Assembly: GCF_000454545.1 (NCBI RefSeq)
Contig: NZ_CM002139.1
Span: forward strand, 4,116,148-4,128,529
Direction: 5' to 3'
Origin: Xanthomonas cassavae CFBP 4642
Lineage (GTDB): Bacteria; Pseudomonadota; Gammaproteobacteria; Xanthomonadales; Xanthomonadaceae
DNA length: 12,382 bases
The notes beneath the pieces were generated by a model. The model saw nothing but the letters and a program-made list of their open reading frames with translations. It was not told the origin of the DNA and searched no databases. Numbering within the stretch: position 1 is the first letter of the stretch; every line of letters starts with the position of its first letter. Positions 2,440-12,382 of the stretch are shown here, in pieces. The position numbers and the translations under genes are program-made.

Positions 2440-3621
2440 CTAGTCATTTACGTGACGCAAGTGCTTCTTCATAACCCATCCCTCAACCACTGTGCCTTCA
2501 TCATTGACGGTGCGGATGAAGCGCCACTTGCCAGCAGCCTGCCATACCTGGACTTCGTCGCCTCGCCGAAGCTCACCCGCTAATGGCCCGGCAGGAGATG
2601 AGCGCAGCGGAGCTCGCAGGGGTAAGACTTCAAAGCTTTGAGAAACAACTTGTAACGCAATCTGAGCAGTCAGGAGCGCTTCTAAACGGGCTACATCAGC
2701 TTTATGCTCTTCTTGCTCAGTGGTGATAGTTGCTTTGAGTTGATGTATTTCTGAGCGCAGCTCGTCTTGGTCGCGACGACCGCTGATGTCACTGTAAACA
2801 AACATCAAGATACCGAACATAAATTGAAGCAACTCTTTGCGCTCTTTCGGATCTGAGAGCGTATGGCGGACTGCGGTGGTGAGCCACGTGACCCATGCGA
2901 CAAGCAGAACTGCCCGTTCGGGAGCGCCGAGATCCTCCTCGCTCTCAAAATCCGCGTATCGAACAGATGCGAGCTCATTGGACTCTAGGTCCGCGAGTGC
3001 TCGATCCACGAGCGCTTGCATGCCATGACCGACAGCAGCAGCTTGCCATGCTTTGAATTGGTCGCTTTGTGAAAGACGAGTAGCCAATTCGAAAGGCTCG
3101 CCAAGCTGCCCAATAAAGCGGTTAATTGACTCGCGGTGTGCGTTAAAGGCGCGGATACTCTCGCCAATCTTCGATAGCCCAAAGTTGAAATCCCTATCCC
3201 AACTTTTCGCAAGTTCGCGGGTTTGATCCATCTGCTTGATCAAAGGGCCGATGCTACTTTGAAATGTGCGTAAAGCATTGATATCGGAATCCCAAGGCAG
3301 CCGCTCGCGCCGACCTAAACCGGTGAATTGCCGCAGGATTTGATCTTGCTGAAACATGGCCTCTTGGAGCTGCCCGAGCATAGGTCCTGTGTTAACCGTC
3401 CGGGCTAGCTGCTCCTGATAAAAGGCAAGCTCAGTCCCCTGAGAGCGCTTGATTGCCTTACCAAGGGGTGACAGGGAGTCAGAGAAGCTCAGTGCCCTCT
3501 TGATCGCATCGTTTTGCAGAGTGCTGCCCAAGACTTGCGTCTTCGACGTGGAACCAATCACCCCAAACCTCTTGGACGTGTCGTTTAACGAATTTCCGTC
3601 ATCACCCGCGTCGTTGGTCAC
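2440..3621 (-). CDS. Coiled-coil protein with hydrophobic segments and C-terminal SH3-like domain
   Basis: I do not recognise the family as a whole. The 393-residue protein has a long, mostly helical polar N-terminal part (1-230), hydrophobic stretches at about 236-251 and 264-278 that could be a membrane hairpin, a charged heptad-like coiled coil at about 283-320, and a C-terminal bacterial SH3-like (SH3_3) domain at about 331-391. That domain shows LPLRAPLRSSP, then LRRGDEVQVW, then GKWRFIRT, ending EGWVMKKHL, the usual order of conserved strands. Bacterial SH3 domains often bind peptidoglycan or peptides, but with no signal peptide here an internal sensor or scaffold is as likely. The start is GTG, chosen because GGAG lies 9 nt upstream and the next in-frame upstream ATG is separated from it by a stop. 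It is the first gene of a probable two-gene operon with the truncated helicase, so it may sense or recruit for that helicase. Confidence 0.75.
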   Translation of the reverse strand: MTNDAGDDGNSLNDTSKRFGVIGSTSKTQVLGSTLQNDAIKRALSFSDSLSPLGKAIKRSQGTELAFYQEQLARTVNTGPMLGQLQEAMFQQDQILRQFTGLGRRERLPWDSDINALRTFQSSIGPLIKQMDQTRELAKSWDRDFNFGLSKIGESIRAFNAHRESINRFIGQLGEPFELATRLSQSDQFKAWQAAAVGHGMQALVDRALADLESNELASVRYADFESEEDLGAPERAVLLVAWVTWLTTAVRHTLSDPKERKELLQFMFGILMFVYSDISGRRDQDELRSEIHQLKATITTEQEEHKADVARLEALLTAQIALQVVSQSFEVLPLRAPLRSSPAGPLAGELRRGDEVQVWQAAGKWRFIRTVNDEGTVVEGWVMKKHLRHVND

Positions 3622-4131: not shown

Positions 4132-5523
4132 ATGCACTTTAAACACTCTCAACTTCACAAGTATTTGCAGCACCCCAAAGGTCAGTTATTTATCCGAAGC
4201 ATTCGCATCGGCAAAGTCGAATTCACTGACATGGTCGTTCAAGACCGAGCCGGCGCGCTTCACCTTCAGGATTTGGTCCAAGCGACCTATGACCATCATG
4301 AAAAGCTGCGACGGCTTCGCCGATCCGGAACTCGCTATCCCGAGCCTTTGCCCTTGGCCACTCCGGCGCGACTCCTCTCTGAAGAGGTGGACGACTTCCT
4401 CAAAGACAAGGAGCGGCAGAACCTTCGCACCACTACGATTGATGCTTATCGCCGCACTCTTGCCATCTTGCACCGGGTGAGCGGCAACACCTCTGTTGCT
4501 CGGATCGAGCACACGCATATCTACCAAATGTGGGATCTGCTGCGATGGGCACCCGAAGACTTCATGACCAACCCCAAGCACCAAGGGTTGAGCGTCGATG
4601 CCTTGATCGCCAAAGGTCAACGCCAAGGGCGGGCTCAACCGGCCAACGCCACCCTGGAACTGCATCGGCGCTTCCTCGCGTCCTTCTTCAACACCCTGGT
4701 CAAAGCTCGTGCCATCCCGCACTCGCCCATGGATGCGTTCAAGCCGGCCAGAGAAGAGCTACTGGCTGATCAGGACGAGCCCGAGCGGCTTCTCTCACCA
4801 GAAGAAATCCAGAAGATCTTCAACCCCGAAACCTTCCTGCCTTGGGCCAAGAAGTATCCGCACCGTTGGTGGTGCCCGCTCATTGCGCTTTACACAGGCG
4901 CCCGGATCAATGAGATCGCGCAGCTCAAAGTGGCTGACATCGTCCAAGATCAAGGCGTGTGGTGCTTCTCGATACAAAAAACCGTGGATGAGGATCTGGC
5001 GCAAAGCGCGGGTAAGCGCAGCCGTCAAAGCCTGAAAGGCAAGAGCGCCATCCGTAAGGTGCCGATCCACGACAGTCTTCTCCAAGCAGGCTTCCTCGAC
5101 TTCCTGGCGGACATCAAGGCGTCTGGTCACCCGCGCCTCTTCCCGAACCTGTCGGCTGGCACCTGCCGCAAGACCGGGGAGCCAAACGGACGCTACAGCC
5201 AGGGCTTCGTCAACCAGTTTGCTGCCTACTTGAAAGGCCTAGGCTTCGGCAAAGGGATCGGATCGCACGCCTTCCGCCATACCCTGGCAACAGAACTCGA
5301 TGCAAAGGGAGTGCGGGTTGAGCACATTGCCTTGATCACAGGTCACGCGCTCAACAAGAAGGCGCCCGTGCTGCAGGACAACTATGTCCACAAATCGGCC
5401 GGGAACACCCGGAAGATCCAAGTAGAAGCGCTCGGCCACTATCAGCCGGCTGTGACGCTGCCGAGCTATGTGCGTGGGCAGTTTAGAGAGAAGCTGAAAA
5501 GGGGAGCTAAGACCTATCCATGA
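4132..5523 (+). CDS. Tyrosine recombinase/phage-type integrase
   Basis: This is a site-specific recombinase of the tyrosine (lambda-integrase) family. It would catalyse integration or excision of a mobile island through a covalent 3'-phosphotyrosine intermediate. All catalytic residues are visible: Arg258 in TGARINEI, Lys309 in AIRKVPIH, His379 and Arg382 in HAFRH, His405 in ITGH, and the nucleophile Tyr418 in DNYVH. A SAM-like core-binding domain lies at about 80-200. The N-terminus begins abruptly just after two in-frame TAG codons. Related long integrases usually carry another N-terminal segment (a YYFRRRIP-like arm-binding region, DUF6538 type) before the LFIRSIRIG-like stretch found here at 19-27, so about 50-60 residues may be missing. 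The ribosome binding site is weak. It presumably once moved some or all of this island. I could not see its attachment site. Confidence 0.9.
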   Translation: MHFKHSQLHKYLQHPKGQLFIRSIRIGKVEFTDMVVQDRAGALHLQDLVQATYDHHEKLRRLRRSGTRYPEPLPLATPARLLSEEVDDFLKDKERQNLRTTTIDAYRRTLAILHRVSGNTSVARIEHTHIYQMWDLLRWAPEDFMTNPKHQGLSVDALIAKGQRQGRAQPANATLELHRRFLASFFNTLVKARAIPHSPMDAFKPAREELLADQDEPERLLSPEEIQKIFNPETFLPWAKKYPHRWWCPLIALYTGARINEIAQLKVADIVQDQGVWCFSIQKTVDEDLAQSAGKRSRQSLKGKSAIRKVPIHDSLLQAGFLDFLADIKASGHPRLFPNLSAGTCRKTGEPNGRYSQGFVNQFAAYLKGLGFGKGIGSHAFRHTLATELDAKGVRVEHIALITGHALNKKAPVLQDNYVHKSAGNTRKIQVEALGHYQPAVTLPSYVRGQFREKLKRGAKTYP

Positions 5524-5680: not shown

Positions 5681-6127
5681 ATGAGAGTCATGGCGTTTGT
5701 AGATGCTGTAAGGAATATTCTGGGGGCGCTTGACGATTACTGGGAAAGAATTGCGTTGAGACTTGAAATTTGGGGCTTTAAGCCATTTCAAGCTGCGGTA
5801 TTGATCGCTTGGATGATCGCGCATCAACGTGATGGCAAAACAAGCCTCAGCGAGCAGGACGCGGCGCTTCTTAGGCCACTTGAAGATCAGCTAGTCGATG
5901 CTATGACAGCCGGAAAAGCCTCAGCAGAAGCACAGCAGTTGCACAGCCTGCTTCCCACTCAGTTTGACTGGATCACGTGGGACGAGCTTAGGAAGGAGGC
6001 ACTTGGCATAGATCCACGCCCAACTGTTCTGGCTTACCTTTTTGCCGCTTATTTGCGCGGCGAACTGACCCGAGCCAACTTGCGGAAGATGATTAAGGCG
6101 GTGCAGGCGTCAATGAGCTACGGCTAG
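5681..6127 (+). CDS. Small protein of unknown function
   Basis: I do not recognise this 148-residue protein. It is predominantly helical, soluble and rich in Ala and Leu. It has a mildly hydrophobic stretch at about 37-47 (FQAAVLIAWMI), too short and mixed for a clear membrane span, and a C-terminal helical segment of about 45 residues with several basic residues. No catalytic motif is visible. Met4 (base 5690) is an alternative start with GAGA closely upstream. It follows the integrase by 157 bp on the same strand and converges on the next gene, whose stop is only 9 bases away. Its codon use looks ordinary, so it is probably a real gene. It could be an accessory gene of the island. Confidence 0.6.
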   Translation: MRVMAFVDAVRNILGALDDYWERIALRLEIWGFKPFQAAVLIAWMIAHQRDGKTSLSEQDAALLRPLEDQLVDAMTAGKASAEAQQLHSLLPTQFDWITWDELRKEALGIDPRPTVLAYLFAAYLRGELTRANLRKMIKAVQASMSYG

Positions 6128-6136
6128 AGCTTTTCG

Positions 6137-6826
6137 TCAGAGACGGGCGGGAGCAGAGGTGACCTTAAGATTTGGGCTGCCAACCGAGAGGGAATTTCGA
6201 ACACGTTTGGCATCCTCGCGCATGCAAAGCAGCTCCATATTCGCACACTCCTTGGCATCCATATAAATGCAAGCTACATGGCCACAGCGGGACCAAAGCA
6301 GGGCCATGCATGCTTCGTGCGAGGCGCGTTGGGCGAGATCAAAAGCATCACACAAAGTCTCGCTTACCTCAACGCGTGCCATCATTCGCTCTAAGCACAA
6401 TGCATCCCCAATGAAGGCGACGCACTCGGCAAGCTTCACCAATTGCAAGTCGCTCAAACCCTGACCGTCAGGATACTGCTCCATGATCAACCGGATCATT
6501 TCTGCTCGAAAAGATGAGCGGGCGAACAGCAGCGTGAGCACAACGGTCAGCTGATCATCGACATGAAAATTGCCTTGCAAACGACCCATCATCCAGTGGC
6601 AACGCATGCATGCCATGGATAGTGCGGGCAACACGACATCCATCATGTCGGGCTCGTCAAGGAGCCACGCGAGGTCTTTAGCACTGGTCGCTCCCAGCAG
6701 CTCGTCCAGCCAGGGCGCAGCATCATGGACGCCTGTCGCCATCCACCTCGATTGATGAGCGCAAGCTTCGCTCCAAGCTTCTAGGATTTCGAATTTCGTC
6801 GGACAACGCCGCGTGGCTTGGCTCAT
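6137..6826 (-). CDS. Cys/Met-rich helical protein of unknown function
   Basis: The gene is probably 229 residues long. A longer open frame starts at a TTG at 6871, but GGAG lies six bases before the ATG at 6826 and decides the start. The protein is helical and rich in cysteine (12) and methionine. Residues about 145-200 show a helix-turn-helix periodicity (AFIGD followed by ALCLERMM, then repeated Ala/Cys-Leu-Leu patterns) that recalls degenerate ankyrin-like repeats. I see no enzyme motif. The cysteines are scattered rather than in CxxC pairs, apart from a CMRC cluster. It converges on the 5681-6127 gene and is divergent from the large helicase, sharing the roughly 180 bp upstream region with it. 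Confidence 0.6.
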   Translation of the reverse strand: MSQATRRCPTKFEILEAWSEACAHQSRWMATGVHDAAPWLDELLGATSAKDLAWLLDEPDMMDVVLPALSMACMRCHWMMGRLQGNFHVDDQLTVVLTLLFARSSFRAEMIRLIMEQYPDGQGLSDLQLVKLAECVAFIGDALCLERMMARVEVSETLCDAFDLAQRASHEACMALLWSRCGHVACIYMDAKECANMELLCMREDAKRVRNSLSVGSPNLKVTSAPARL

Positions 6827-6830
6827 GAAT

Positions 6831-6836
6831 AGCTCC
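6831..6836 (-). promoter_or_regulatory. Ribosome binding site deciding the start at 6826
   Basis: GGAGCT on the minus strand has GGAG six bases from the ATG at 6826. The upstream TTG candidate at 6871 has no such sequence, so the shorter protein is preferred. Confidence 0.55.
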
Positions 6837-6948
6837 AAGCACGAGACTAAGATCTCTAAGCATCTTGTCAATTCGCATCATCGGCACGATTCGAGAGCAT
6901 TTCTGCTGGCCAGATCAATCAGTTGGCCTTCTTCTTGATCACAAAGCC

Positions 6949-7007: not shown

Positions 7008-10000
7008 ATGAGCCGCCCGCACTTATCTAAATCCATTGACCAGCTCGAAGAGCTTTACGCTGAATCCCTTTCTGACGAGGCCACGCTTGCAGAACTCGCG
7101 GAGGAACTTGGCTTTCGCCGAACTCCGCGTGCCAAGGAGCTTGCTACGGAGGTGGTCAATGCCTTGGGTCGCTACCGGGCACAGGGCCGGGCTGACAGCG
7201 CGCACAACCAGGCGCCGCTTGCGCCACGCGACGCCTCAACCGAGCCAACGCGCCCTCGTCCTGAGCCGAGCGATATGGCGGAGCAGCAGGCTGGGCCCAC
7301 CATCCCCCCGCCTGAATTCGAACCGGTGAACTACACCAATCGCGCTCCCGATATCCTGGATGCTTGGTCAGCTCTGGAAGTGCTATCGCCCACCACCTTC
7401 AAGCGACGCGCAGAGCTTGCGAGCAACATAGCGCAAAACATCGTCTCGATTGGACCAGGGCTGCCTTGGGATGGCGGCTCCGCCCGCTCTAAGCCGAACT
7501 TCAAGGTCTACTTTCATATCATCCTCGGAACGCTTGCCGCTGAGCCCGCTTTCGGCAAGCTTCTCACGCGTTTTCAAGACGCACGCCCCAACCCGCCCAA
7601 CATCAAGGGCGAGGTCGTTCTGGCATCGATCTTGGTCGACAAAGACGGACTTCTGGCTGGCGACATGCCGGTAACCCTCTCGGCTTTTGGCTGGGGCCTA
7701 CCTGTTGCGCTCGAAGGCTCATTGCTCGATTTGGCTTCCTGGACGAGGGAAGAAGGTCGCCTGATTGAAGGCCTCACCAAACAGCTCCGCCCCGATCCAA
7801 GTGGGACGGATACGCCGATCGCTTACGCCACGCTTCAAAAGGCGTTCTCCTGGCTGGTGCAAACCCTCAGACTCCCTGCCGAGCTGGTGCAGGGCCCGCA
7901 ATTTGCCGTCGCTGCCTACATGGGCTTTCGAAGCAGCCTCGTTCCGGATCCGCTCCTGCTCAACAGCTTCTTCTTGCGCGACCTGGCCCGAGCCAAGGAT
8001 CGCGCAATGCGTCAAAAGCTTCCGTCAGCACTGGCGCGCTTCTTGGGGCAGACCAAGCCCTCGGAGCGGCATGACCTTTTGCATGACCGCCAAGCGCTTG
8101 ACCAGGCATTGTCGCCTGCCATTGCGCCCCTTGGGCGCTGGGTCACTCCACCTAACCAGCGTCCGGCGCTCTTACAGCAGGTGGCGGTAAACCTCGCCTC
8201 GCAGTTGCCTAAGACGAGCCCCTTGCTGGGCGTCAATGGCCCTCCTGGCACGGGCAAGAGCACGCTACTACGCGATGTCATGGCCGATCAGCTGACGCGT
8301 CGGGCCGAGGCCATGTGCGCCTTCGATGATCCCAAAAAGGCCTTCAAATCTGCATGGAGTAAACGCATCCGAGGTGAAAATCAGGAGCTATTTTCTCTTG
8401 ATCTGTCGCTTCGTGGTTTCGAAATGGTCGTGGCAAGCTCGAACAACAAAGCAGTCGAGAACATCAGCGAAGAGATCCCGGCACTCGGCTCCATTGCCAA
8501 GGAAAGCACGCTTCGTTACTTCGAGCCTTTGGCAACCCAGCTGCTTGGCAAAGATGCCTGGGGTCTTTCGGCAGCTGTCCTGGGGAACGGCACCAACCGC
8601 TCCCGCTTTCGAAAGGCGTTTTGGACAGAATCGCATCTCTCGTTCAAGACCTACCTGGAACGCGTTAGTGGCATCACGCCGCGCCAAGAATCTGATCGCG
8701 AGGGCTTAGCTGAGCTTTGCCAAGCCCCTGCAAGTCCAGTTGAGGCCATGGCGCGTTGGCAGCAAGCGAAACAGCACTTCCAAGCTTGCTCAGCGCAAGT
8801 GCGCAAGCGCTTGGCGGAATTGGAGTCGCTTCGACAGGCACTCGGTGCCCTGCCTACTCTACGGAAACGCGAGCAATATGCCTCACAGCAAAGGGCCGAT
8901 GCTGAGCGAAATGCTGCCATTGCTATAGAGACTTGGCAGACAGCACAATCGATATCAACCAACGCCGGGAGCCAGCTTGGAGGCAGCCGGGAAGCGCTGA
9001 GCCAACATGAGCGGGATCGTCCTGGTTTGTTCGCCCTGAAACGCCTGTTTGGTTCGACCAGCGTCAAGCAGTGGGAGGCCGCAAATACACACCTCGCTCG
9101 CGAGCATGATCAAGCACAAGTTGCCTATCGGAAATTAAAGTCCAAAGAAGATGCCGCCCTCCAAGCGTCTGAGCAGGCGCGAAAAGCCGCCCATGATATC
9201 GCCGCATCTCACGTCACAGCAAAGGATGCGCTGGACAAGGCCCTTGCTCGATGCGCAAGCGTTCAAGTGGGCGACGGCGCTTGCGTGCTTGATGCGAGTT
9301 TCCACGATCTTGCACACGGCGCCAAGAATTTGGCGTTGCCTTGGCTGGATCGCGATCTTCAAACCCAGCGTTCTGAACTGTTTGAAGCGGCAATGGATGT
9401 CCACCGCGCCTTTATCGATGCGGCAGCCTTACCACTACTTCGCAACTTGAATGGGCTTGTCGGCAGCAACTTCAAGCTTGGCGCCGATCGCAAGCAATTG
9501 GCAGCAGATCTATGGGCAAGCTTGTTCCTTGTGGTGCCAGTCATTTCCACTGCTTTTGCATCAGTCGAACGTATGCTCAACCAGCTTCCTGATGAGAGCC
9601 TAGGTTGGTTACTCGTCGATGAAGCTGGCCAAGCAACGCCTCAGTCGACCGTTGGTGCACTCCTTCGAACCAAGCACGCGCTCATTGTGGGCGATCCATT
9701 GCAGGTAGAGCCCGTGGTCCCGCTGCCGCCCGTGCTTACGCAAGCGGTGATGCGCGAGTTTAAGGTTGATTCGGATCGCTTTGCTGCTCCTAACGCTTCT
9801 GCCCAAACGCTTGCTGACGACGGAAGCCTGCATTGCGCGCGCTTTGAAACCACATCAGGTTCTCGCGCGGTTGGTGCGCCGCTGTTGGTGCACAGGCGCT
9901 GCGCCTCGCCAATGTTTGAGATTTCCAACCGTGTGGCCTACAACAACCTCATGGTCCAAGCCAAAGTGCCTGGTGTTTCGATCATCCGGGATGCCTTGGG

Positions 10001-10451
10001 TCCTTCACGCTGGATCGAGGTTTGTGGCAGTGGACGGGATAAGTATTCGCCCGAGGAAGGCGAGCAGGTGATCGCGCTCTTACGGTTGTTGCAGAGGGCT
10101 AGCATCGCTCCTGACCTCTATGTCGTCACACCGTTTGTCGTCGTGCAAGACGAGCTTCGGGAGCTCGTTCGTCGCTCAGGCTTGCTTACCGGTTGGGTGA
10201 ATAGCCCTTACGAGTGGACTAAAGAGCGCATTGGCACTGTGCACACTGTTCAAGGTCGCGAAGCCCAAGCCGTGATCTTCGTGCTGGGCGCTCCGCAAGC
10301 TGCCCAGCATGGTGCGCGCGGCTGGGCTGGATCGACGCCGAACCTCCTCAATGTTGCAGTCACGCGTGCCAAGGAGGCAGTGTATGTAGTTGGCAATCGA
10401 TCGCTTTGGTCAGGAGCCGGGCACTTCGCGATGCTTGACCAGATGCTTTGA
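7008..10451 (+). CDS. Large SF1B (COG1112/Upf1-like) helicase with coiled-coil insertion
   Basis: This is an ATP-dependent nucleic-acid helicase of superfamily 1B (AAA_11/AAA_12 type, as in Upf1, Dna2 and COG1112), 1147 residues. Motifs: Walker A GPPGTGKST (411-419); Ia around ASSNNKAVENI (476-486); Walker B LLVDEAGQ (868-875); motif III VGDPLQVEPV (894-903); motif IV region HRRCASPMFEISNR (from 962); motif V TVQGREAQAV (1080-1089); motif VI NVAVTRAK (1115-1122) with Arg1120 as likely arginine finger. All are intact, so the ATPase should be active. Before the motor lie a helical N-terminus (1-60), a Pro-rich linker (about 66-107) and an N-terminal domain (about 108-280) of unknown fold. Between Ia and II is a long Ala/Gln/Glu/Lys-rich coiled-coil insertion (about 575-745). 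No kinase domain is seen. It heads a same-strand cluster with PLD and NYN nuclease genes, which suggests a nucleic-acid defence role: the helicase may find or unwind the target and the partners cut it. The stop is a TGA followed directly by TAA. Confidence 0.9.
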   Translation: MSRPHLSKSIDQLEELYAESLSDEATLAELAEELGFRRTPRAKELATEVVNALGRYRAQGRADSAHNQAPLAPRDASTEPTRPRPEPSDMAEQQAGPTIPPPEFEPVNYTNRAPDILDAWSALEVLSPTTFKRRAELASNIAQNIVSIGPGLPWDGGSARSKPNFKVYFHIILGTLAAEPAFGKLLTRFQDARPNPPNIKGEVVLASILVDKDGLLAGDMPVTLSAFGWGLPVALEGSLLDLASWTREEGRLIEGLTKQLRPDPSGTDTPIAYATLQKAFSWLVQTLRLPAELVQGPQFAVAAYMGFRSSLVPDPLLLNSFFLRDLARAKDRAMRQKLPSALARFLGQTKPSERHDLLHDRQALDQALSPAIAPLGRWVTPPNQRPALLQQVAVNLASQLPKTSPLLGVNGPPGTGKSTLLRDVMADQLTRRAEAMCAFDDPKKAFKSAWSKRIRGENQELFSLDLSLRGFEMVVASSNNKAVENISEEIPALGSIAKESTLRYFEPLATQLLGKDAWGLSAAVLGNGTNRSRFRKAFWTESHLSFKTYLERVSGITPRQESDREGLAELCQAPASPVEAMARWQQAKQHFQACSAQVRKRLAELESLRQALGALPTLRKREQYASQQRADAERNAAIAIETWQTAQSISTNAGSQLGGSREALSQHERDRPGLFALKRLFGSTSVKQWEAANTHLAREHDQAQVAYRKLKSKEDAALQASEQARKAAHDIAASHVTAKDALDKALARCASVQVGDGACVLDASFHDLAHGAKNLALPWLDRDLQTQRSELFEAAMDVHRAFIDAAALPLLRNLNGLVGSNFKLGADRKQLAADLWASLFLVVPVISTAFASVERMLNQLPDESLGWLLVDEAGQATPQSTVGALLRTKHALIVGDPLQVEPVVPLPPVLTQAVMREFKVDSDRFAAPNASAQTLADDGSLHCARFETTSGSRAVGAPLLVHRRCASPMFEISNRVAYNNLMVQAKVPGVSIIRDALGPSRWIEVCGSGRDKYSPEEGEQVIALLRLLQRASIAPDLYVVTPFVVVQDELRELVRRSGLLTGWVNSPYEWTKERIGTVHTVQGREAQAVIFVLGAPQAAQHGARGWAGSTPNLLNVAVTRAKEAVYVVGNRSLWSGAGHFAMLDQML

Positions 10452-10462
10452 TAAGAACGATC

Positions 10463-10538
10463 TGCCTAAGCGAAGTTTTGAACTAAGCCTTTTTTAAAAG
10501 AAACGCCACCTGCACTTCAAAGGAAAGCGGTTAGGCAA
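10463..10538. repeat. TGCCTAA / TTAGGCAA inverted pair before the PLD gene
   Basis: TGCCTAA at 10463-10469 and TTAGGCAA at 10531-10538 match the octamer repeated upstream of the integrase. They lie in the 174-bp gap between the large helicase and the PLD gene, about 90 bp before the PLD start. This suggests a common DNA-binding protein for both gaps. Confidence 0.35.
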
Positions 10539-10611
10539 GCGAGCTATGCATTCCCAGCTTACACAACTGACTGAACTTGGATAGTTCGCACCAAGTGGCC
10601 TACACAGAAAT

Positions 10612-10616
10612 GGAGG
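10612..10616 (+). promoter_or_regulatory. Strong ribosome binding site of the PLD gene
   Basis: A perfect GGAGG lies 9 bases before the ATG at 10626. It is the best Shine-Dalgarno sequence in the cluster, which suggests that the nuclease is made efficiently and independently of the helicase. Confidence 0.6.
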
Positions 10617-10625
10617 ATTTGCAAC

Positions 10626-11201
10626 ATGGCAGTTCTCATCAAAGATCAGAAAGATCTGGTCGATTGGGTCAAAGGGCAGGATACTGACCTTGATCTTGCA
10701 GTAGCGTTCTGGGGAACTAACGCTTCAACGATTTTGCAACTAAGCAAGCCTAGTCGAAGCGTTCGTGTCATCTTGGAGCTAAGCCAGGGAGCAACGAACA
10801 TCACAGAGGTCAGGACCCTGATGACGCTCAAAGGCGTCCAGGTCAAGACACTGGATCGCCTCCACGCCAAGGCTTACATCGCCGCAGATGAGATGGTGAT
10901 CGGGAGTGCGAATGCATCATCTGGTGGACTTGGTGTCGCTGGATTTGAACACCTCCACTGGAAAGAGCTTGGCTTCCGCACCAGTGATCAAGTGTCATTG
11001 GCTGAGGCAAAGGCCTGGTTCGAAGTGTTATGGACCGAAGCCAGAATGATTGAACCGAGCGAACTTGATCGTCTAGAAAAGCTCCACGAGATTAGAAAGA
11101 CGCAAGCCGTTCCAATGGTCTCCAATGGGTCGACGCTCGATGCTTTGAAAAATCATCCTGAGTTCTTCGCTGACCAGGAAATCTGGATCACTGTTGTGTG
11201 A
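10626..11201 (+). CDS. PLD-family (HKD) nuclease, possibly the N-terminal part of a split protein
   Basis: This is a phospholipase D superfamily protein with one HKD motif. His80 and Lys82 in LHAKAYIA are followed by VIGSANASSGGLG (91-103), the usual GSxN part, and an acidic Glu114 (KELGF) takes the usual late position. Single-motif PLD proteins normally act as dimers, and most bacterial examples near helicases are nucleases. No signal peptide is visible, so it should act in the cytoplasm. It lies 174 bp after the large helicase and overlaps the next gene by four bases. At 191 residues it is short, and its last residues (EIWITVV) read smoothly into the next frame if one TG of the TGTGTG at the stop were absent. 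It may therefore be the N-terminal part of a ~313-residue protein. With its HKD motif intact it could still be active. Confidence 0.85.
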   Translation: MAVLIKDQKDLVDWVKGQDTDLDLAVAFWGTNASTILQLSKPSRSVRVILELSQGATNITEVRTLMTLKGVQVKTLDRLHAKAYIAADEMVIGSANASSGGLGVAGFEHLHWKELGFRTSDQVSLAEAKAWFEVLWTEARMIEPSELDRLEKLHEIRKTQAVPMVSNGSTLDALKNHPEFFADQEIWITVV

Positions 11202-11569
11202 CCAGCAAGCTTAGTGAGGCACAAGAGGCGAAGCGCAAGAAACAGCAGGATGAAAGTCCGGGCATTGAAATCTATGCCTACGCACGATGGCCGAAGATGC
11301 CTCAAAACGCAACCATCATCAGTTTTACTTGGTATCGAGGACATAAATTCAAAGCCGATAAACCACTCATCTATCAAACTCCCGATGGGCGCCAGCCTGG
11401 TGAGATGCAATACATCCAGCCAGGAAATCTTCCTTGGTTCGAACTTGGCAACCTCAAAGAATGGGAAAACGCGGTGATCAATTTCCGTGATGGCAATTTG
11501 GCCAAGTGGCAGCGGGATCATGGCCTCTATATGCGGCTCCGTGATTTCAAAGAATATATTGATAATTAG
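11198..11569 (+). CDS. 123-residue protein coupled to, or split from, the PLD nuclease
   Basis: I do not recognise a named domain. The protein starts with a charged Lys/Glu/Gln helix (1-20), then a compact aromatic region (IEIYAYARWPKMP, ATIISFTWYRG, PWFELGNLKEWENAV, WQRDHG) that looks like a small beta-rich domain with conserved tryptophans. The only start is GTG in a GTGA overlap with the PLD stop. It has no Shine-Dalgarno sequence at proper spacing (AGGAA lies 17 bases upstream), so it depends on translational coupling to the PLD gene or is the C-terminal half of that gene after a frameshift. The stop is 12 bp before the NYN gene. A target-recognition or dimerisation domain for the nuclease is possible but not shown. 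Confidence 0.65.
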   Translation: MTSKLSEAQEAKRKKQQDESPGIEIYAYARWPKMPQNATIISFTWYRGHKFKADKPLIYQTPDGRQPGEMQYIQPGNLPWFELGNLKEWENAVINFRDGNLAKWQRDHGLYMRLRDFKEYIDN

Positions 11570-11581
11570 ATAAGGAAGATC

Positions 11582-12316
11582 ATGGCACACCAACAGGATG
11601 GAACGGTCGCGGTTATGATCGACTGCGACAATGTAGCACCAGCGATTATCGATTTCGCGCTCCTTATGGCAGCGCAGGCAGGTCGTGTGATCCTTCGGCG
11701 GGGTTATGGAAACAAAGCAACGCTCAGCAACTCTTGGGAGCAAGCATTAGTCCGGCAGGCGTTCACCCCATGCCTCCAATACCAATACGCGTCTAAAAAG
11801 AATACTGCTGACATCGCTCTGGCTCTTGATGCTCAAGAAGCGCTGTTCGACAAGCGTGCAGAGGTCTTTTGCCTTGTCACCAGTGATTCGGATTTTGCAT
11901 ACCTTAGTCGCAGACTGAGAGAGCGAGGCGCAACGGTTTTCATAGTGGGCGAGGCAAAAACGCCTGATGCCCTGCGTAATGCTTGTGATCGATTCTTTGA
12001 ATGGAGTCCGGAGCAGGCAGCTGCGGAAGCGCCTGATGCGGAGACACCAGAAGCAAAACCTGCGGCTCCTACTCAACTCAAGTCTGTCGCTGTGTCTACC
12101 CAATCGGCAAAGATCAAACGTCGGCCGCGATTTGTCGTGGAAGCTGTCTCTCTGCTTGCAGCGGGAACACCGGATGGCAGGGTCAGCGTGAGCGCGCTGA
12201 GTCAGTATTTGAAACGTGCAGACTCAGCCTTCTCTCCAAGTGCCTACGGGCACTCTGGACTCGTTGACATGTTGAAGACCCGACGTCCCCCCATCCTGAG
12301 TAGCAGTCGGGTTTAG
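11582..12316 (+). CDS. NYN (PIN-like) RNase with LOTUS/OST-HTH domain, truncated by IS
   Basis: This is a NYN-domain protein of the LabA/DUF88 type, related to PIN nucleases and likely a metal-dependent RNase. The acidic active-site residues are visible: Asp14 and Asp16 in MIDCDN, Asp77 in KNTADIAL, and Asp102 and Asp104 in TSDSDF (100-105). The NYN domain spans about 8-140. An Ala/Pro/Glu-rich linker (144-175) leads to a LOTUS/OST-HTH RNA-binding domain from about 178 (RPRFVVEAVSLL, VSVSALSQYLKR, FSPSAYGHSGLVDML). That domain is cut after Thr233 (base 12280), where the IS begins. The last 11 residues (RRPPILSSSRV) and the stop come from the IS. The final strands of the LOTUS domain are missing, so RNA binding is probably impaired, while the catalytic domain is whole. 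A good AGGA lies before the ATG. It follows the 123-residue gene by 12 bp, in one operon with the PLD gene. Confidence 0.88.
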   Translation: MAHQQDGTVAVMIDCDNVAPAIIDFALLMAAQAGRVILRRGYGNKATLSNSWEQALVRQAFTPCLQYQYASKKNTADIALALDAQEALFDKRAEVFCLVTSDSDFAYLSRRLRERGATVFIVGEAKTPDALRNACDRFFEWSPEQAAAEAPDAETPEAKPAAPTQLKSVAVSTQSAKIKRRPRFVVEAVSLLAAGTPDGRVSVSALSQYLKRADSAFSPSAYGHSGLVDMLKTRRPPILSSSRV

Positions 12317-12382
12317 AGTCCGGGGTTGATGATATCGCTGTTGGCCAGGTGCTGGGCATAGGCCGTCGGCGTCATTCCGCCG
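12281..12382 (-). mobile_element. 3' end of the same IS, right copy, inverted
   Basis: This is the same element end as at 1-93 but on the opposite strand: 12281-12373 is its exact reverse complement, and nine further bases of the element follow. It interrupts the NYN-LOTUS gene. The two copies point their transposase 3' ends at each other across 12.2 kb, as in an inverted composite transposon, although the outer halves and target duplications lie outside the window. Confidence 0.8.
12313..12382 (-). CDS. IS transposase, C-terminal fragment (right copy)
   Basis: This is the minus-strand C-terminal end of the transposase, with its stop codon at 12315-12313 and 22 residues in view. It begins Gly-Gly-Met-Thr-Pro and then continues as in the left copy. 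The body of the gene is beyond the right edge. Confidence 0.6.
   Translation of the reverse strand, partial: GGMTPTAYAQHLANSDIINPGL

Follow-up and report, generated by a model that had tools for sequence, protein, structure and literature searches.

In type I Mokosh systems the helicase carries a kinase domain, SauUSI is a single protein in which a PLD nuclease is fused to a helicase, and in eukaryotes UPF1/MOV10-type helicases, PLD6/Zucchini and MARF1 take part in RNA decay and silencing. Type II Mokosh, in the part of its description drawn on here, joins an RNA-helicase-like domain and a C-terminal nuclease (PLD) in one protein (PMC10740426), and a passage of a second source likens Mokosh to the eukaryotic piRNA pathway (PMC11291487). 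The CnuH-CnuE proteins of type II and III CoCoNuT systems, as outlined in excerpts of their description, bring a UPF1-like helicase together with HEPN, Vsr or PLD effectors (PMC11090510). For the NYN (LK-nuclease) proteins, the relevant passages of a 2010 paper report that their genes have no conserved neighbours from known RNA-processing systems, and consider them possibly standalone (PMC2848206). Here a locus of Xanthomonas cassavae CFBP 4642 is compared with these systems. It lies in a 12,382-nt stretch of the 5.27 Mb genome (G000:C6:4116148-4128529, contig NZ_CM002139.1; hereafter the window) and encodes, all on the forward strand, a UPF1-like superfamily 1B (SF1B) helicase, a PLD-family nuclease and a predicted NYN-LOTUS RNase (Table 1).

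On balance, the locus is probably a decayed copy of a modular set, in which a helicase is followed by an exchangeable nuclease and a NYN-LOTUS gene, and an intact copy would likely be defensive. The window copy is probably decayed because its PLD gene is split and its NYN-LOTUS gene ends in an insertion sequence, and it would no longer be fully working. The three genes likely form one operon and would be co-transcribed, although the 174 nt between the helicase and PLD genes leave room for doubt. The sequence-only reading of this DNA had proposed a cluster of four genes. Family scans and comparison with homologues leave three, of which two are damaged: the helicase, PLD and NYN-LOTUS genes are real, the last being truncated, and the supposed 123-residue protein is the C-terminus of the PLD.

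Table 1. Features of the helicase-PLD-NYN-LOTUS locus, in window coordinates
Feature	Position	Strand	Evidence or remark
UPF1-like SF1B helicase, 1147 aa	7008..10451	+	AAA_11, AAA_12, Viral_helicase1
Intergenic gap between helicase and PLD, 174 nt	10452..10625	+	No terminator-like site found
PLD-family nuclease gene, N-terminal part, 191 aa	10626..11201	+	PLDc_2, E 5.9e-6
PLD gene, C-terminal part in another frame, 123 aa	11198..11569	+	Homologue alignment; not a separate gene
Predicted NYN-LOTUS RNase of 244 aa with a shortened LOTUS domain	11582..12316	+	NYN, E 9.9e-28; OST-HTH/LOTUS, E 2.1e-6
Insertion-sequence end truncating the NYN-LOTUS gene; the copy runs beyond the window and a single-N assembly gap	12282..12382	-	

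The long helicase is encoded in five of thirty-five genomes of the genus, the window included, with weaker partial matches in eight more. In each of the other four genomes a 542-aa protein is encoded after the helicase, and a 265-aa NYN-LOTUS protein after that. The 542-aa protein is a Mrr_cat nuclease (5.5e-29; PADLOC mREase_IV, 7.2e-79), not homologous to the PLD that occupies its position in the window, where no Mrr remnant was detected (best tblastn E 0.27). The NYN gene starts 12 nt past the preceding gene in both the PLD and the Mrr versions, and between the two forms the helicases are 57 % and the NYN proteins 63 % identical. The same trio is found, intact, on the X. hortorum plasmid CFBP498_p224, where it is annotated as DEAD/DEAH box helicase, restriction endonuclease and NYN protein. 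Two Agrobacterium plasmids likewise carry the helicase with Mrr, the pair of Agrobacterium pusense GV2 being intact, with no NYN gene found in the 8-kb flanks of either pair; on the Agrobacterium leguminum plasmid, an annotated PIN-domain gene (L208, 1668-2810) lies two genes upstream of the pair. Relatives of the Mrr protein lacking the helicase were observed at four plasmid loci and in nine matched genomes of the 398 in the phylum, absence in the nine referring to the stretches examined, some of them short. The helicase keeps its place as the downstream content changes, since it is followed by Mrr, by PLD or by an open reading frame (ORF) of 86 aa. Nucleases like Mrr and PLD both occur in type IV restriction, and in this gene set the two appear to fill the same slot. 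No prior description of a helicase-Mrr/PLD-NYN operon was found among the titles retrieved, which cover subscription journals thinly.

The helicase is intact in length and keeps its motifs (Walker A GPPGTGKS at 8238, Walker B LLVDEAGQA at 9609 and others at 9690, 10236 and 10353). The SF1 motifs and a UPF1/IGHMBP2-like core place it among the UPF1-like SF1B helicases, and residues 577-751 form a long helical, coiled-coil-like insert. As the sequence-only reading had noted, it carries no kinase, with no protein-kinase family matching at E values up to 0.1. The closest named relatives of both the helicase and the PLD proteins are from Xanthomonas.

The 191-aa ORF of the PLD gene falls just below the PLDc_2 gathering score (26.6 bits against 27), contains the HxK...GSxN motif from 10863 and, in a structure model of a relative, spans the whole PLD fold; the PLD model lies nearest to SauUSI and NucT. 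The intact homologue P0128 (313 aa, from X. arboricola pv. arracaciae) aligns across both pieces, its residues 1-191 corresponding to the 191-aa ORF at 97 % and residues 191-313 to the 123-aa ORF at 94 %. Xanthomonas sp. D-109 likewise has an unbroken PLD (P0126). Both pieces match 29 of the 65 PLD homologues, and a profile search of the genome itself recovers a single PLD model split across two adjacent frames. The 123-aa ORF, considered as a novel protein and presented earlier as a gene of its own, is therefore rejected as such. Searched alone it returned no homologue, probably because the search admitted only proteins of up to 1.75 times the query length. No intact PLD was found in viral contigs, and no near plasmid DNA was found.

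Twelve other loci of this PLD family were fetched (7 + 5), and the neighbours of nine were partly scanned against families. Four of the twelve sit in clear defence operons, with the gene orders TerY-PP2C-STK_OB-PLD (G243), PLD-AAA_5-McrBC component, the latter without PADLOC recognition (G022), GmrSD-PLD-HsdR with one small gene between (G005) and HsdM-HsdS-GmrSD-PLD-HsdR with two unassigned genes between (G499). At a fifth locus (G761) the PLD gene is divergent to a NYN-OST-HTH gene. No such defence operon was seen in four of the partly scanned loci, and the neighbours of three (G340, G702 and G436) lay outside the family scan. This PLD family moves from one kind of defence operon to another, including GmrSD/type I, McrBC-type and TerY-P.

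The NYN domain of the NYN-LOTUS protein (PF01936) retains the acidic motifs DCDN, TADIALALD and SDSDF (11621, 11804 and 11882). Of the 71 OST-HTH positions, just 8-53 are matched, against 15-70 in a relative (L134), and the stop codon falls inside the inverted-repeat end of the insertion sequence at the window edge; the LOTUS domain of the window copy is incomplete. A second NYN-LOTUS gene is present elsewhere in the genome, and 31 of 35 genomes of the genus contain one or more NYN-LOTUS matches, for the most part more distant copies (~32-34 % identity). By sequence, no solved structure was found for the NYN protein. One viral contig carries a NYN gene (L222), and its ORF list includes no ORF of the helicase's size.

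Ten NYN loci lack the helicase (L185-L194), and tblastn found no traces of helicase, Mrr or PLD in them. An element of ~137 nt, or its last ~90 nt, stands directly before the NYN gene in nine of these (all except L191), occurs twice in L188 and L189, and stands directly before the helicase in all five helicase-Mrr-NYN loci (L136:3859-3995); BLAST found none in the window. When five of the helicase-less loci are compared with L136, DNA homology returns at most 5 nt from the NYN start. From these positions and the resumed homology, the helicase-Mrr pair sits between the element and the NYN gene, an arrangement which either insertion or precise loss of the pair would explain. The carriers of the element look like Xanthomonas mobile elements. 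It was considered as a possible leading-region promoter, a reading not adopted because its first 18 nt seem to resemble a tRNA-Ser gene at its 3' end. In L185, L188, L189, L190 and L193 (a fragment in the last) the NYN-LOTUS gene is divergent to a gene of ~1590 aa, which is a Rhs protein in L190, the other four being judged by size and place. On the Polaromonas plasmid pPNAP03 (L197), a NYN-LOTUS relative is flanked on one side by a N-6 methylase/helicase block and on the other by an AAA ATPase-UvrD pair resembling Gabija in its annotation.

An unlikely alternative to the modular set is that the helicase makes up a complete single-gene system, for defence or for maintaining nucleic acids, and that the PLD and NYN-LOTUS genes beside it are unrelated mobile neighbours. 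Relatives of the helicase were sought in 84,980 species genomes; 354 relatives were confirmed and the best 80 of them used (79 loci); viral contigs contributed fourteen more, for 93 related loci altogether. Single-sequence searches with the window PLD and the 123-aa ORF found relatives in none of these best-matching 93 loci, and NYN gave one weak match, a NYN profile again returning only this locus (L080, E 5.9e-4). One further locus (L045, E 8.8e-6 with an intact PLD relative of 312 aa) came from searches with that relative and with a PLD profile; its PLD lies ~3.6 kb from the helicase. In a motif test of 105 loci (the 93 and later ones, duplicates among them), a PLD is part of the helicase itself in four cases, and a PLD neighbour within 5 kb was seen in the window only. 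Most related helicases examined thus lack both partners, and a widely conserved helicase-PLD-NYN set is rejected. The sequence-only reading had named helicases without PLD or NYN neighbours as the finding that would speak against it, and these are largely what the searches returned. Because related helicase loci are mostly without them, NYN and PLD are optional partners; what survives of the proposed set is its gene order, which recurs elsewhere with Mrr, and not an obligate four-gene system.

Several further observations weigh against the modular set, and some of them favour a helicase acting alone. Twenty-four of forty long-helicase loci (the window excluded; L005/L138 and L017/L140 being the same places) have no same-strand ORF of at least 80 aa within 120 nt downstream, five of the twenty-four lying near a contig end, suggesting that the protein may frequently work by itself; a Mrr gene is present in four of the forty. 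An 88 %-identical helicase (L105; G170) is followed by the 86-aa ORF and not by PLD. The DNA shared by G170 and the window extends only from just before the helicase start to the helicase stop, and the PLD is found in none of twenty genomes of the genus of G170. The PLD form of the operon was seen once, in a damaged copy, and the PLD could therefore be a chance neighbour, as the gap before it would also allow. Linked NYN or Mrr genes are absent from eleven of the twelve other PLD loci by the searches made (five loci, with NYN in G761 only, and seven with none). NYN-LOTUS is a common mobile gene, its close subfamily occupying fifteen places in the thirty-five genus genomes, only five of them with the long helicase; three are short fragments (G303, the second in G381, and G325) and three are split or truncated (G285, G389 and the window copy). 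It can adjoin a Rhs gene or genes annotated like Gabija, and has the upstream element as its own in nine of ten helicase-less loci. The five Mrr versions differ so little that they represent about one lineage. Against a solitary helicase stand the NYN gene that ends the run, on the same strand, after all five long helicases of the genus set, its constant 12-nt spacing, and the helicase-Mrr pairing in Agrobacterium.

It is also possible, if somewhat improbable, that the locus is a relic without present role, which is compatible with its being a decayed copy of a modular set. Damage to two of the three genes, the insertion-sequence ends at both window edges and a possible position on a mobile island agree with a relic; the full-length helicase with its motifs, the PLD catalytic and NYN acidic motifs lying within intact pieces, and the second NYN-LOTUS gene in the genome argue against one. 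Very improbable is a true Mokosh system, either a type II whose fused gene has come apart into two or a type I minus its kinase, with the PLD as a MkoB-like nuclease. PADLOC, the kind of defence finder that the sequence-only reading had recommended, gave MkoC (4e-58; residues 402-1137 against positions 264-950 of a 1136-position profile) and MkoA (1.8e-20) as the best scores of the helicase, and the PLD gene is next to it; to that extent the likeness to Mokosh stands. It does not extend to the nuclease, since neither the 191-aa piece (E up to 0.1) nor the intact 312-aa relative (E up to 0.01) matches MkoB, and hhalign of PLD against MkoB gives a probability of 10 %. A PLD-fused control (L071) matches MkoC up to profile position 1135 and MkoB at 1.2e-19, whereas no PLD lies within the 1147 aa of the window helicase, whose match stops at position 950. 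MkoC scores are at least as good in all seven relatives scanned, of which only L071 is PLD-fused, and in a quick helicase tree with long branches the control falls outside the window helicase clade. With no fused PLD, no kinase and no MkoB match, Mokosh membership was rejected.

If the modular set is real, the UPF1-like helicase would serve as a sensor or as a motor moving along foreign nucleic acid, which the partner nucleases would cut, PLD and Mrr doing equivalent cutting, and NYN-LOTUS would act on RNA as an optional add-on arm. A bolder version, which we regard as distinctly unlikely, is a new defence cassette in which, around the helicase core, an exchangeable type-IV-style nuclease (Mrr or PLD) attacks DNA and a MARF1-like NYN-LOTUS RNase attacks transcripts, hitting foreign DNA and RNA together.

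The window is bracketed by two inverted copies of one insertion sequence (1-92 and 12282-12382), which we take to be IS3-like; the same copies continue in the flanks (L002:12041-12241 and L003:4429-4633), each with a single-N assembly gap. Further out, two transposase-like genes of identical sequence form a second pair (L002:9054-10019 and L003:11450-12415). At 71-2377 on the reverse strand, a UvrD-like helicase (PADLOC GajB, 3.6e-23) has its C-terminus cut by the left insertion-sequence copy, and the C-terminal part of a tyrosine integrase at 4132-5523 appears, by eye, to be duplicated past the right one (L003 ~4820-5060). Three ORFs of 393, 148 and 244 aa (2440-3621, reverse; 5681-6127, forward; 6137-6871, reverse) gave no Pfam match above cut-off and no PADLOC match. 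Inspection by eye places VirD4/TraG-like, zeta-toxin-like and MobA-like genes upstream (L002 1587-11340) and, downstream (L003 7339-9593), a HAD and phosphoribosyltransferase-like gene overlapping a DprA-like gene, possibly a further defence pair. The upstream genes suggest that the block may be part of a conjugative-element-like island. Rfam gave no match, and the promoter and terminator scan scored below the shuffled mean.

Were the modular set confirmed, it would represent a helicase motor that keeps its place while its nuclease is swapped for an unrelated one, and would explain how such loci might be mistaken for Mokosh by finders that look for a fixed set of genes. Given the likening of Mokosh to the piRNA pathway and the eukaryotic counterparts of all three proteins, the bacterial set would offer a natural comparison for UPF1/MOV10, PLD6/Zucchini and MARF1 pathways. 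It would also link bacterial NYN-LOTUS proteins to a UPF1-like helicase, and under the cassette reading would be their first partner system.

Compared with Mokosh, the locus likewise has a related SF1 helicase and a PLD-type nuclease nearby, and the set would work like part of Mokosh; it differs in the separate PLD, the missing kinase, the added NYN-LOTUS gene and the Mrr nuclease of its relatives. With TerY-P (STK-OB) systems it shares the PLD family, found after TerY-PP2C-STK_OB in G243, whereas none of nine window proteins matches a TerY-P model. The likeness to type IV restriction (Mrr-like REase, SauUSI) consists of the Mrr-type nuclease in the relatives' slot and the PLD model; in SauUSI, however, PLD and helicase are fused, and here no modified-base reader was recognised. 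From the helicase-Mrr-NYN operon the window differs in having PLD between helicase and NYN. The NYN and LOTUS architecture is that of bacterial NYN (LK-nuclease) proteins with OST-HTH and of eukaryotic MARF1, but in contrast to the neighbourhood reported in the passages cited (PMC2848206), the NYN-LOTUS gene here closes a helicase-nuclease gene run. The CoCoNuTs differ in their McrB/McrC (CnuB/CnuC) family, which is absent among the nine window proteins, and, so far as the excerpts of their description go (PMC11090510), share the UPF1-like helicase, the helical coiled-coil-like insert and interchangeable nuclease effectors that include PLD. By analogy, they may be regarded as a precedent for a UPF1-like helicase with swappable effectors.
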